43,893 bases of DNA from Eggerthellaceae bacterium (GTDB lineage Bacteria; Actinomycetota; Coriobacteriia; Coriobacteriales; Eggerthellaceae). A program made the position numbers and the translations under genes. Below, piece by piece: positions 35,456 to 39,946 of this stretch. How positions within the stretch are numbered: the stretch's first letter is position 1; each line of letters starts with the position of its first letter. Under the pieces are notes generated by a model, which saw nothing but the letters and a program-made list of their open reading frames with translations, did not search any database and was not told where the DNA came from. The stretch is from the NCBI GenBank assembly GCA_015062605.1, contig SUUI01000015.1, forward strand, positions 1 to 43,893. Reading direction: 5' to 3'.

Positions 35456-36430
35456 CTAAGCCAGGCAAGCATCGAGCGCATCGGCCAAGAACGCACATGC
35501 GCCTTTGCCCGCTCGCGACTCATAGTAATCAGAAAAGCGTTCATCGTTCAGATACATCTTTGCCAACCCTAGGTGCGCCTGGCGCGAATACGCCCCATCT
35601 GCCCATTGCATGCGAATCCATCTTTCATGCATATGTGCGAGCTTTTGCGCTTCCTCGCCCGAAGCATCGCCCGTCGCCATCGCTTTGACGAGTTGGTCGA
35701 TGATGGCTTCTTCAAGTTCTTCCTTGTTCTGCCATTGCGTATCATCCATAGCGAGAACCTTCCTGTTCGCAGCATCGATAGCTTCATCACCGTACTTGGC
35801 GCGCGCTTCTTCGCCATAGAGCTTCTCGTTCTCCTGCACAGCTTTACCTGCGCGCGTTCTCAGCAAACCATGGCGATTGCAATATGCGTAGAAGTCGCAT
35901 GGGCCATGAATGCCGAATCGGGCTTCTGCCGAGCCTTCGGGGTACAGCTTTTTTATCTGCACCTCGTCATCGCACACGCATGCGATGAAGCTGATGTAGT
36001 GCTCTTTCGTCATCGGATGATCGATGCTGACGTAGTATTCGTCATCGATGCGATCCGTATGGATCACATGCTGGTCATCGAAGGATTCCGCCTCAAGCGG
36101 AATCATCTGAATACCACAGCAGCTCGCAGCATTCGCACCGAGCGACCAAACAACGTTTCCGCAGATGGGGCAAACATGGAAAATGCTCTTGCGCACATTG
36201 CCGGAACGGTTCTCGTTACGCGCGACCTCACCTGTGATCAGCTCGGCAACCGACACGCAAAATGCTTGAGCAAGCGGTTCTATAAGGCTGATATCAGGCA
36301 GACCACGACCCGTCTCCCACTTCGAGACAGCCTTCGCAGTCACACCGATTTGCGCGGCAAGCTGCTCCTGGGTCATCGCGTGGGCAGTACGCAAGTCCTT
36401 TATTGTTTCGGGGGAAATATACCCGCTCAT
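35456..36430 (-). CDS. XRE regulator fused to desulfoferrodoxin-like and TipAS domains
   Basis: A 324-residue three-part protein. Residues 6-62 are an XRE/Cro helix-turn-helix (TQEQLAAQIGVTAKAVSKWETGRGLPD). Residues about 83-190 look like desulfoferrodoxin. A CxxC...CC rubredoxin-like knot (Cys87, Cys90, Cys104, Cys105) is followed by a superoxide-reductase-like module in which His121, His138 (DHPM), His144 (EHYI), Cys184 and His187 (CNRHG) match the SOR iron ligands. Residues about 203-322 match TipAS, the drug-binding domain of TipA (YGEEARAKYGDEAI...HMHERWI...GLAKMYLNDERFSDYY...FLADAL). It probably senses redox state or superoxide and perhaps a cationic or thiopeptide ligand (inference). 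The SD GAGGAGGAG is strong. Only the HTH role is well supported. Confidence 0.88.
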   Translation of the reverse strand: MSGYISPETIKDLRTAHAMTQEQLAAQIGVTAKAVSKWETGRGLPDISLIEPLAQAFCVSVAELITGEVARNENRSGNVRKSIFHVCPICGNVVWSLGANAASCCGIQMIPLEAESFDDQHVIHTDRIDDEYYVSIDHPMTKEHYISFIACVCDDEVQIKKLYPEGSAEARFGIHGPCDFYAYCNRHGLLRTRAGKAVQENEKLYGEEARAKYGDEAIDAANRKVLAMDDTQWQNKEELEEAIIDQLVKAMATGDASGEEAQKLAHMHERWIRMQWADGAYSRQAHLGLAKMYLNDERFSDYYESRAGKGACAFLADALDACLA

Positions 36431-36546
36431 CGTCTCCTCCTCATAGATGTGCGACTTACACGAATCGCAGGGGTTCGGTTACATGCCAAAACGTATTTTG
36501 AAGAGGAATCCCCCGACACGCAACCTACGCTTCGTAGATACGGGCA

Positions 36547-37101
36547 CTAGGGGCGCACGAGTTCGTACCACATGGCATCCTGATCGGGTTCGTCTGGGCA
36601 ATCGGAGGGCCATGCGGCTGTATGCGTGTACACGAAACCGCACTTCTCGATTACGCGTCGCGATGCATCATTGAAAAGGTAATGGCTCGTCGTAATGAGC
36701 CGCACGTCCGTCCTCTTCCATGCCCAATCGATGACCGCTTGCGCAGCTTCGGTCGTGTAACCACGATTCCAATATGGCTCTGCAAGCCAATAACCGAGCA
36801 GGAGCGCATCGGGCTCGTTTTGGCGCGATGGATCGGGAATTAAGCCGATAGACCCGATAACAGGACCTTGAGAGGCATCTGGGCCATCGAGTTTTTCGCA
36901 AACTGCCCATACGCATCCCAGCGGAACGATTTCCTCGATATATGCGAGCGAATCCTCAATGCATGTATGGGGCGGCCAACCCGCATTGGTGCCTAAAACG
37001 GGATTGCTACATGCTTGGAAAACGTCGGGGGCATCCGTGCGTTCGAACGCGCGGAGCACAAGACGCTTGGTACGTATTTCCTCAACCGAAGGCATCGTCA
37101 T
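36547..37101 (-). CDS. RimJ/RimL-type GNAT acetyltransferase
   Basis: A 184-residue N-acetyltransferase of the RimJ/RimL type. It has IRTKRLVLRAFERTDAPDVF at the N-terminus, GSIGLIPDPS, then LLLGYWLAEPYWNRGYTTEAAQAVIDWAW, which is the acetyl-CoA binding segment, and NDASRRVIEKCGF. The substrate is probably a protein alpha-amino group or a small amine; it cannot be decided. Starts at 37101 and 37095 are both possible and neither has a clear SD. It begins 25 bp after the aconitase stop, so it is probably the third gene of the icd-acn operon. Confidence 0.85.
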   Translation of the reverse strand: MTMPSVEEIRTKRLVLRAFERTDAPDVFQACSNPVLGTNAGWPPHTCIEDSLAYIEEIVPLGCVWAVCEKLDGPDASQGPVIGSIGLIPDPSRQNEPDALLLGYWLAEPYWNRGYTTEAAQAVIDWAWKRTDVRLITTSHYLFNDASRRVIEKCGFVYTHTAAWPSDCPDEPDQDAMWYELVRP

Positions 37102-37126
37102 CGATCGTTCGCGAGAACGCGGAGCC

Positions 37127-39946
37127 CTAGCGGTTCTCCAGAACGTACTGAAGAATGCCGCCACTCGTGAAGTAGTGACCCTCCGTAGGTGTGTCGATAC
37201 GAACGATCGCCTCGAAGCTGCGAGTTACCCCATCAGAGTCTTTGGCATGTACGCATACGGTCGACGGCTTAGGCAAACCATCCGCGCAATCGATTGGATC
37301 GATCGAGAAACGTTCGTGTCCGGTAAGCCCGAGCGTTTCCGCATTCTGTCCATCGAGAAATTGGAGGGGCAAGATGCCCATCCCAATGAGGTTGGAGCGA
37401 TGAATACGCTCGAAACTCTCAGCTATGACCGCGCGGACGCCAAGGAGCATCGGCCCCTTCCCCGCCCAGTCGCGCGATGAGCCGCTGCCATAGAGTTTGC
37501 CTGCCACGATAATGCTATCGATTCCCGCATCCTTATAAGCCATCGCCGCATCGAAGATCGTCTCAATCTGGCCGGTCAGATGATTGCGCGTGAAGCCACC
37601 TACGCGACCTTCGGCCAGCTCATTGCGCAGTTTAACGTTCGCGAACGTGCCGCGCATCATAACCTCGTGATTGCCTCTACGTGAGCCATAGCTATTGAAA
37701 TCTGCAGGTGCCACACCGTGCGACTCCAAATAACGCGCTGCAGGAGAATCAAGCGCAATGGAACCTGCTGGAGAGATATGGTCGGTCGTGATGAAATCAC
37801 CGAACTTGCCGAGTACGCATGCGTCTTCAAGGCTCCAGGAAGCCTCGCTCGCATCTGCACGTTCATCTTCGCTATCCGCGTTTGAACGAGCGACGAGCTC
37901 ATCGAAATATGGTGCGCAACGCACGTAGGTCGAAGCGTCGTCCCATGAATACAAATCGCCGCCTATAACATCGATGGCACGCCAAGATTCGCTTCCTTCG
38001 TAGGTGCCGCACGCTCCTTCCTCGTAAAGGACGTTCGTTGCGAATTCATTCATCAATTCATCGATTTTTGCAGCGCTCGGCGCAAGATCGCGCAGATACA
38101 CCGGCTCACCGTCGTTTGATACGCCCAAGGCGTCCTTCGTCAAATCGATATCCATCGTGCCCGCCAACGCATAAGCGACCACGAGCGCGGGAGCCATCAG
38201 ATAATTCTGCGCGACATCGGGCGAGATGCGCCCATCGAAGTTGCGATTGCCCGAAAGAACGCTCGTAAGCTCAATCGAGTCGGCGATGGCATGCATAGGC
38301 TCGCACAAAGGACCGGAGTTTCCAATACAGCTCATGCATCCAAAACCGCAGTTATAGAAGCCTTCCTTTTGCAAGCTTTCCAACAAGCCGGCATGGGCGA
38401 GCAGCAATTCCGTCGCCTTGCTGCCTGGTGCGAAAATCGTCTTCACCCATGGTTTGGGAGTAAGACCGGCTTCCGCAGCGTTCTTGGCTAGAAGTCCTGC
38501 AGCTAACATCATGGCGGGATCGGTTGCCGTCGTGCAGCTCGTAATCGCTGCGATGGCAATAGCGCCGTGAGAAATCTCGAAATCACCCTGCTCAAGCGCA
38601 ACCGTCACGCACTCCGAAGCATCGAGTTCGCGCTTTTCGCACAGGCTCTTGAAGCTTTTTTGCGCGCAGGAAAGCGCGATGCGGTCATGCGGGCGCGAAG
38701 GTCCTGCGATGGATGGCTCGATTGCACCCAGGTCGATCTCGACGATGCGCGCGTAGACGCAATCATCTTCGGCAGCTATTTGATCTCCCGCCAAAACGCC
38801 ACCGTGCTCGCCCCAGCAACCCTGCACCTTCGCATATGCCTCGATTAAGGCAAGTTGCTCGCTTTCGCGACCGGTCAGCCGCAGATAATCGATTGTGCGA
38901 TCGTCCACGGGGAACAACGTGCACGTGCATCCATATTCAGGCGTCATATTGGCGATGCAAGCGCGCTGCGTGGCGGAAAGCGAAGCGATTCCCTCCCCAA
39001 AGCACTCGACGAAGCATCCGACAACGCCCTCGGCACGCAATGTTTCCGCAAACGTCAAAGCGACATCCATGCCCATTACTCCGGGTTTGAGCTCTCCGAC
39101 AAGGCGTACACCCACCACTTGCGGAACAAGCGTGGTAATCGGCTGTCCAAGGGCTGCAGCCTCCGCTTCGATACCGCCAACGCCCCAGCCGAGTACGCCG
39201 ATGCCATTCGCAGTGGGCGTATGGCTATCGGTTCCTACCAATGTGTCGAAATACGCAAGCGCCTCATCACAAGCCTCGGATTCGTTCGTCATGACAACAT
39301 GCGCGAACTGCTCGATATTGAGCTGATGGCAGATGCCCGATCCTGGAGGAACGATGCGCACGTTATCGAACGATTCCTGCGACCATTTCAGGAAGCCGTA
39401 GCGCTCTGCGTTGCGTTCCGACTCTAAAACCATGTTGGCCTTAAGCGCTTCGGCGCAACCTGCCACGTCGGCAATGACGGAATGATCGATAACAAGATCG
39501 CAGGGAACGAGCGGATTAATGGTTGCGGGGTCGCCACCCATTTCGACGCACGCTTTGCGCATAGCCGCAAAATCCACGAACACCGGAACGCCGGTGAAGT
39601 CTTGGAACAGAACGCGCGCAGGTGCGAATTCGACTTCCTGCCCCGTTTGGCCAGCAAGACCTGCTTCGACGATACGGTCTGCAAGCATTCGGGCCGCATT
39701 TTCATCAGCGGCTGTGCGTAACACGTTCTCAAGCAAAACCTTGAGCGCGCGAGGCAAATGCTTTACGCCATCGATTTGATCGATTGCGCAATAACGATAG
39801 TTCCGCCCCCTCACGGTAAGCGTCTTTTGGAATGAAGCGTTTCCACTCAAGATGGCGTCCTTTCCTTCGGATGCGTGGAGTTCTCCATACGCACAATCAA
39901 ACTCATGCTCGCGCACGTCAAGCTCCTCTTCGCTTAACGCGTCCAT
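37127..39946 (-). CDS. acnA: Aconitate hydratase A
   Basis: Interconverts citrate and isocitrate through an active-site [4Fe-4S] cluster. The 939-residue protein has the cluster cysteines in AITSCTTATDPAM and GFGCMSCIGNSGP, the substrate region VGTDSHTPTANGIGVLGWGVGG, and the swivelling C-terminal domain with GKFGDFITTDHISPAG and YGSGSSRDWAGKGP. The conserved domain begins near YRYCAIDQI (residue 50), so about 45 N-terminal residues are extra. The ATG at 39946 has a weak SD; a GTG at 39916 has GAGGAG upstream and may be the true start. The gene lies 28 bp after isocitrate dehydrogenase, giving the oxidative branch from citrate to 2-oxoglutarate. No citrate synthase gene is in the window. Confidence 0.96.
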   Translation of the reverse strand: MDALSEEELDVREHEFDCAYGELHASEGKDAILSGNASFQKTLTVRGRNYRYCAIDQIDGVKHLPRALKVLLENVLRTAADENAARMLADRIVEAGLAGQTGQEVEFAPARVLFQDFTGVPVFVDFAAMRKACVEMGGDPATINPLVPCDLVIDHSVIADVAGCAEALKANMVLESERNAERYGFLKWSQESFDNVRIVPPGSGICHQLNIEQFAHVVMTNESEACDEALAYFDTLVGTDSHTPTANGIGVLGWGVGGIEAEAAALGQPITTLVPQVVGVRLVGELKPGVMGMDVALTFAETLRAEGVVGCFVECFGEGIASLSATQRACIANMTPEYGCTCTLFPVDDRTIDYLRLTGRESEQLALIEAYAKVQGCWGEHGGVLAGDQIAAEDDCVYARIVEIDLGAIEPSIAGPSRPHDRIALSCAQKSFKSLCEKRELDASECVTVALEQGDFEISHGAIAIAAITSCTTATDPAMMLAAGLLAKNAAEAGLTPKPWVKTIFAPGSKATELLLAHAGLLESLQKEGFYNCGFGCMSCIGNSGPLCEPMHAIADSIELTSVLSGNRNFDGRISPDVAQNYLMAPALVVAYALAGTMDIDLTKDALGVSNDGEPVYLRDLAPSAAKIDELMNEFATNVLYEEGACGTYEGSESWRAIDVIGGDLYSWDDASTYVRCAPYFDELVARSNADSEDERADASEASWSLEDACVLGKFGDFITTDHISPAGSIALDSPAARYLESHGVAPADFNSYGSRRGNHEVMMRGTFANVKLRNELAEGRVGGFTRNHLTGQIETIFDAAMAYKDAGIDSIIVAGKLYGSGSSRDWAGKGPMLLGVRAVIAESFERIHRSNLIGMGILPLQFLDGQNAETLGLTGHERFSIDPIDCADGLPKPSTVCVHAKDSDGVTRSFEAIVRIDTPTEGHYFTSGGILQYVLENR

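Follow-up and report, generated by a model that had tools for sequence, protein, structure and literature searches.

The window, a stretch of 43,893 nucleotides from an Eggerthellaceae genome (contig SUUI01000015.1), carries on its minus strand a gene (35456..36430, stop codon included) that joins an XRE-type helix-turn-helix (HTH), a desulforedoxin-superoxide reductase (Dx-SOR) module, and a TipAS domain. Its assignment is based on the open reading frame (ORF) in the window, Pfam, alignment to solved desulfoferrodoxins, and orthologues. The ORF encodes a protein of 324 aa from an ATG start, and a Shine-Dalgarno sequence, AGGAGG, can be read 5 nt before this codon (36436..36441, minus strand).

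The XRE (Cro/CI-type) helix-turn-helix occupies residues 10-64 (36239..36403, minus strand; HTH_3, 7e-12), and its recognition helix contains the residues AKAVSKWE. The desulforedoxin-like metal site, CPIC-x13-CC (C87, C90, C104, and C105; 36116..36172, minus strand), was placed by alignment to solved desulfoferrodoxins and is followed by an SOR-like module at residues 107-193 (35852..36112, minus strand), where Pfam Desulfoferrodox (PF01880) matches residues 135-190 above its cut-off at 1.1e-5, in addition to a model match. A predicted drug-binding domain, TipAS, extends over residues 197-324 (35459..35842, minus strand; PF07739, 1.3e-28, residues 205-321). The initial annotation had proposed this three-domain fusion, and HTH_3, PF01880, and TipAS all score above their cut-offs, with structural models in agreement; of the domain searches that it suggested, those with PF01880 and PF07739 were positive, whereas desulforedoxin PF06397 reached 12.0 bits, under its cut-off of 23. 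TIGR00320 covers residues 85-191 at 5e-14, its 52.5 bits lying far under the equivalog cut-off of 146.9. Residues 85-189 align with solved desulfoferrodoxins (up to 1.6e-10), and residues 203-320 align with solved TipAS proteins.

AlphaFold models back all three folds, the mean pLDDT of the whole-protein model being 78.5. In this model, the XRE part is similar to the P22 c2 repressor (Z 11.5), and the Dx-SOR part is similar to the SOR of T. pallidum (1y07, Z 15.5) and to desulfoferrodoxin (1dfx, Z 14.4). TipAS, modelled with family sequences, reaches a pLDDT of 94.7 and best matches 2mbz, TipAS with promothiocin A (Z 12.2).

The other two genomes of the genus each carry an intact, full-length orthologue (97% and 91% identity), and the gene order uvrB, GNAT, aconitase, isocitrate dehydrogenase is common to all three; a full-length gene with identical neighbors in two other species rules out an assembly artefact. 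Searches of 138 family, 298 class, and 391 clostridial genomes gave no other full-length fusion. A location on mobile elements is not backed, as plasmid and phage searches gave no place covering at least 80% of the fusion protein.

The two portions of the protein have separate counterparts elsewhere in Eggerthellaceae: the closest stand-alone HTH-Dx-SOR proteins match residues 1-197 at 59%, and the closest separate TipAS proteins match the final 130 residues at 62%. The joining of XRE with Dx-SOR is not new, as it corresponds to the published and widespread class HTH-Dx-SOR (SORGOdb, 2011; PMC3116461), which is defined by sequence only. As in that class, the HTH stands directly before a Dx-SOR module with CxxC...CC ligands, in the order HTH, desulforedoxin, SOR site, with 40-60% identity over residues 1-196. 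Unlike that class, the fusion carries an extra C-terminal TipAS, and its desulforedoxin cysteines follow the tighter spacing CxxC-x13-CC, against CxxC-x15-CC in SORGOdb. A scan of 84,980 species returned at least 567 relatives; the 80 best are without exception HTH-Dx-SOR proteins, 192-232 aa long, and such genes occur by the hundred in strict gut anaerobes (Clostridia, Treponema, and Coriobacteriia). In the literature searched, we found neither a function nor an operator for this class, nor a TipAS joined with a desulfoferrodoxin; judged by its domain order, the triple fusion with TipAS is a new variant of HTH-Dx-SOR. T. denticola TrtA, a 104-aa XRE protein with no recognizable domain past the HTH, was considered and is unrelated to the fusion.

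Metal ligands of the Dx-SOR module

All nine metal ligands, four in the Dx center and five in the SOR center, are present by alignment, as the initial annotation had claimed. C87, C90, C104, and C105 map one to one onto solved desulfoferrodoxins, and the His4Cys ligands H121, H138, H144, H187, and C184 align to 2ji2. Both metal sites and the overall fold are those of canonical desulfoferrodoxin or 2Fe-SOR (2ji2, 1dfx, and the genome's own copy, G000:C10:47150-47536); in contrast, the canonical proteins have no HTH or TipAS, and the fusion has a shortened Lys48 loop in which the lysine is replaced.

Seven of the nine ligands (C87, C90, C104, H121, H138, H144, and C184) are invariant in 80/80 relatives, taken as the best 80 of at least 567, and the ligands that vary among these 80 are C105 (Cys in 56/80) and H187. 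In a set of 126 HTH-Dx-SOR relatives, all nine ligands are kept in 91. His replaces C105 in 29 of the 126, and all 29 have Asp at position 187, which is otherwise Asp in three only; L112, L119, L133, and L050 are examples of this joint change. As these alignments indicate, one ligand from each metal site is changed together in part of the HTH-Dx-SOR family.

This conservation bears on whether the protein is mainly an enzyme, in which case Dx-SOR would be an active superoxide reductase or scavenger, the XRE head would do no more than set the protein's own amount, and TipAS would trap a drug independently; the protein would then detoxify and adjust its own level instead of sensing. The intact ligands, in the fusion and in 91/126 relatives, fit this explanation, as does the single operator per genome described below, so that no regulon beyond the protein's own gene is seen. 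In addition, K142 in the HPMxKxH motif is K or R in 126/126 relatives, with Glu at this position in the genome's canonical SOR, and may substitute for the lost Lys48 in an active enzyme. However, the position of the catalytic Lys48 (EKH motif) is Q120 in the fusion, within a loop shorter than that of canonical SOR, and is K in only 4/126 relatives; the window genome also encodes a canonical Dx-SOR, separate from the fusion, that has the EKH motif; and about a quarter of the relatives carry His at 105 together with Asp at 187 and still keep the operator. Some natural SORs also have no Lys48, so its absence is not decisive. For D. baarsii, Glu47 and Lys48 are reported to have a role in SOR catalysis, according to the title of reference 98 in PMC3116461. 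Overall, we consider the enzyme explanation rather unlikely. Given that Lys48 is not a conserved position and that the genome encodes its canonical Dx-SOR separately, we favor an autoregulator that senses iron or redox state over a protein that is mainly an enzyme. Of the two possibilities offered at the outset, an iron sensor or an active SOR, the former is thus preferred on the present comparison and the latter is the weaker.

Origin and conservation of the fused TipAS domain

TipAS had been described as normally attached to MerR, and this description does not hold within Eggerthellaceae, where its partners are MerR, XRE-Zn_ribbon_2, XRE directly (L102, in G346), or none (L105, in G146). The XRE-Zn_ribbon_2-TipAS architecture was confirmed by Pfam in G253 and G233, and the same sequence pattern is present in G336, G215, G323, and G337. 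These proteins (L064/L072, L071, and others) share with the fusion an XRE head, a metal-binding middle, and a TipAS tail, but have a zinc ribbon in place of Dx-SOR and belong to a different XRE subfamily. Going by these architectures, TipAS has been repeatedly reshuffled in Eggerthellaceae.

In a tree of TipAS domains, the fused ones form one well-supported clade, and therefore one fusion event is indicated. The candidate donors are a MerR-TipAS and an XRE-Zn-ribbon-TipAS protein, which the branches do not separate, and the start AVQENE, shared with the G233 protein, may point to an XRE-Zn-ribbon-TipAS donor. An origin from a tandem such as that in G169, where an HTH-Dx-SOR gene is followed by a nearby MerR-TipAS gene, was rejected, as the TipAS of G169 is not the nearest.

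None of the three genomes of the genus has a TipAS gene besides the fusion, whose TipAS keeps every invariant residue of 25 family TipAS domains. Separate production of TipAS from an internal start, known from S. lividans, is not supported: a GTG at V199 is conserved, without a conserved Shine-Dalgarno sequence.

The dN/dS ratio among the three species of the genus is about 0.07 for the whole gene; it is about 0.02 in the HTH (range 0-0.03), about 0.03 in Dx-SOR (0.02-0.04), and about 0.14 in TipAS (0.13-0.16), and the fusion has been maintained at dS up to about 0.7. These ratios place all three parts under purifying selection, with TipAS the least constrained.

One explanation on which this pattern bears is that Dx-SOR is a metal-dependent structural module, with zinc or iron serving the fold only and the regulator answering the TipAS ligand alone. 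The parallel XRE-Zn_ribbon_2-TipAS architecture is in keeping with such a role, but the same ligands occur in HTH-Dx-SOR proteins that have no TipAS, a His4Cys site would have no obvious structural need, and constraint within the genus is stronger on Dx-SOR than on TipAS; a purely structural role is accordingly improbable in our judgment. Another is that TipAS is the passive passenger of an accidental gene fusion, the protein being an ordinary HTH-Dx-SOR. The dN/dS ratio is indeed higher for TipAS than for the other two domains, and the fusion is restricted to one genus among the family, class, and clostridial genomes searched. Nevertheless, its ratio is still that of purifying selection, its invariant residues are all kept, its fold is modelled with high confidence, and three species at the divergence given above retain it, and we find a passenger TipAS quite doubtful.

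A conserved dyad upstream of HTH-Dx-SOR genes

The upstream regions of 126 HTH-Dx-SOR genes, relatives picked by similarity to the window protein, were searched for a common motif. A dyad, CTCTACGNNNCGTAGGTNGC, is common to 121 of them and has the consensus CTACGNNNCGTAGGTNGC, mostly with CT just before it. With an operator counted when at least 11 of the 14 consensus positions match, 121/126 upstream regions score, as compared with 18/2520 shuffled regions and 17/1501 random windows of the same loci. The operator-bearing genes come from three phyla, Actinomycetota, Bacillota, and Spirochaetota (for example, L119, L146, and L010). We found no published description of an operator-like dyad of this cross-phylum kind in the literature searched. 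An RNA element was rejected as the nature of the upstream dyad, there being no Rfam match at this place.

In the window, the putative operator, TCTACGAAGCGTAGGTTGC (36520..36538, minus strand), matches 14/14 consensus positions and lies 90-108 bp upstream of the start codon. The predicted -35 hexamer, TTGCGT (36518..36523, minus strand), overlaps the operator edge, its position relative to the motif and the -10 box being fixed over 121 promoters, and the predicted -10 hexamer, CAAAAT (36495..36500, minus strand; family consensus TATAAT), follows after a 17-bp spacer. Across the 121 promoters, the -10 box stands at fixed spacing from the operator, its two firmest columns being A in 93% and T in 94%, and the columns flanking the operator are near random apart from this box. 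With the 17-bp spacer, the -35 box is TNGCNN and forms the right edge of the motif, TNGC retaining three consensus bases. This places the dyad center about 42-43 bp upstream of where transcription is predicted to start.

A perfect operator precedes all three fused genes of the genus, and the single exact copy in the window genome is the one before the fusion gene. Fifty exact operators occur in 299 genomes from the order, and 43 of them immediately precede either an HTH-Dx-SOR gene or what remains of one. The weight lies on this position before the gene; the site count per genome is weak evidence, since a reversed control pattern is likewise present in a good number of genomes. The other seven exact sites include a second exact copy in one genome (L233:1161-1434, G211), which precedes a short ORF of about 69 aa with a flavodoxin/FMN reductase-like start, perhaps truncated. 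At L202, L219, L229, and L232, the HTH-Dx-SOR genes are truncated or broken, with a perfect operator still in front.

HTH residue 42 and recognition-helix residue 34 covary with operator positions 1 and 4, as counted with shared ancestry uncorrected, and this covariation fits direct reading of the site by the HTH-Dx-SOR protein. A conserved dyad operator at the gene's own promoter is what would be expected of an XRE autoregulator, and autoregulation by the XRE head at the predicted operator is the best reading of these sequences. That the site is instead bound by another regulator, of which HTH-Dx-SOR genes would be targets without self-regulation, is very improbable, for although the dyad core ACGNNNCGT is similar to MerR/TipA operators (PMC7762955), MerR operators lie between -35 and -10 and this dyad lies upstream of -35, and the site is essentially single copy, tied to the HTH-Dx-SOR gene over three phyla, and varies with the HTH residues. 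The putative autoregulatory site, which we continue to assign to the XRE head, goes beyond what the initial annotation had observed.

A possible mode of regulation

We therefore return to a self-regulating HTH-Dx-SOR transcription factor that has gained TipAS and combines class II self-activation, redox or iron sensing, and a ligand input, a reading in which we place about even confidence. The XRE head would bind the dyad CTACGNNNCGTAG as a dimer, touching the -35 box of its own gene, and a protein bound at this distance from the predicted start would more likely lead to positive autoregulation. At its own promoter, lambda CI takes the class II activator position around -42. Because the predicted operator lies at this position, positive autoregulation is judged likelier than repression by this analogy. 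However, because TNGC keeps three consensus bases of a -35 box, repression by covering of the promoter fits nearly as well, and self-repression is a close second choice after self-activation.

The Dx-SOR module would hold iron in its two sites. From its conserved ligands, it probably senses redox state or iron, and perhaps scavenges as well, and it would alter the action of the head. A hydrophobic drug on the C-terminal TipAS could then stabilize or switch the protein, and high self-induced protein levels would trap the drug, as in TipA. TipA proteins are minimal autoregulated systems that trap drugs (PMC7762955), and for this reason TipAS on another self-regulating protein makes sense, as an increase in ligand would raise the amount of protein; by this analogy, TipAS probably adds a second, ligand-sensing input. 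The fusion shares with the TipA class (TipAL, Mta, SkgA, and AlbA; PMC7762955) the C-terminal TipAS fold with its conserved core and a likely autoregulation. It differs in having XRE HTH_3 rather than MerR, in the absence of a coiled coil and, by alignment, of the thiostrepton-binding cysteine of S. lividans, and in an operator upstream of -35, whereas the TipA operator lies in the spacer. SkgA, a TipA-class protein, was named for KatG regulation (PMC7762955).

The protein was initially proposed to be a regulator joining oxidative and antibiotic signals; its being a regulator is supported, and the joining of the two signals is plausible. No conserved gene neighborhood pointing to a redox pathway was seen near HTH-Dx-SOR genes, and their most frequent "neighbor" proved to be an antisense artefact. 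A broader proposal, tentative and somewhat unlikely as it stands, is that HTH-Dx-SOR proteins are widespread, unrecognized iron-based redox regulators of anaerobes, mainly self-activating from a cross-phylum class II site, and that in this genus TipAS makes the regulator a two-input one, oxidative and drug, whose response is more of itself.

The precise, conserved putative operator and promoter make HTH-Dx-SOR regulation directly testable. The fusion represents a drug-binding domain grafted onto an iron-site regulator, both functions being predicted, and kept by selection; such a graft would let a single molecule connect the responses to antibiotics and to oxygen.

As a minor observation on the surroundings, the fusion gene is closely preceded by the GNAT gene (36547-37164), which shares 38 bp with the end of the aconitase gene (37127-39946; both on the minus strand), and GNAT-like genes lie near 6 of 80 HTH-Dx-SOR genes, again the best 80 of at least 567.
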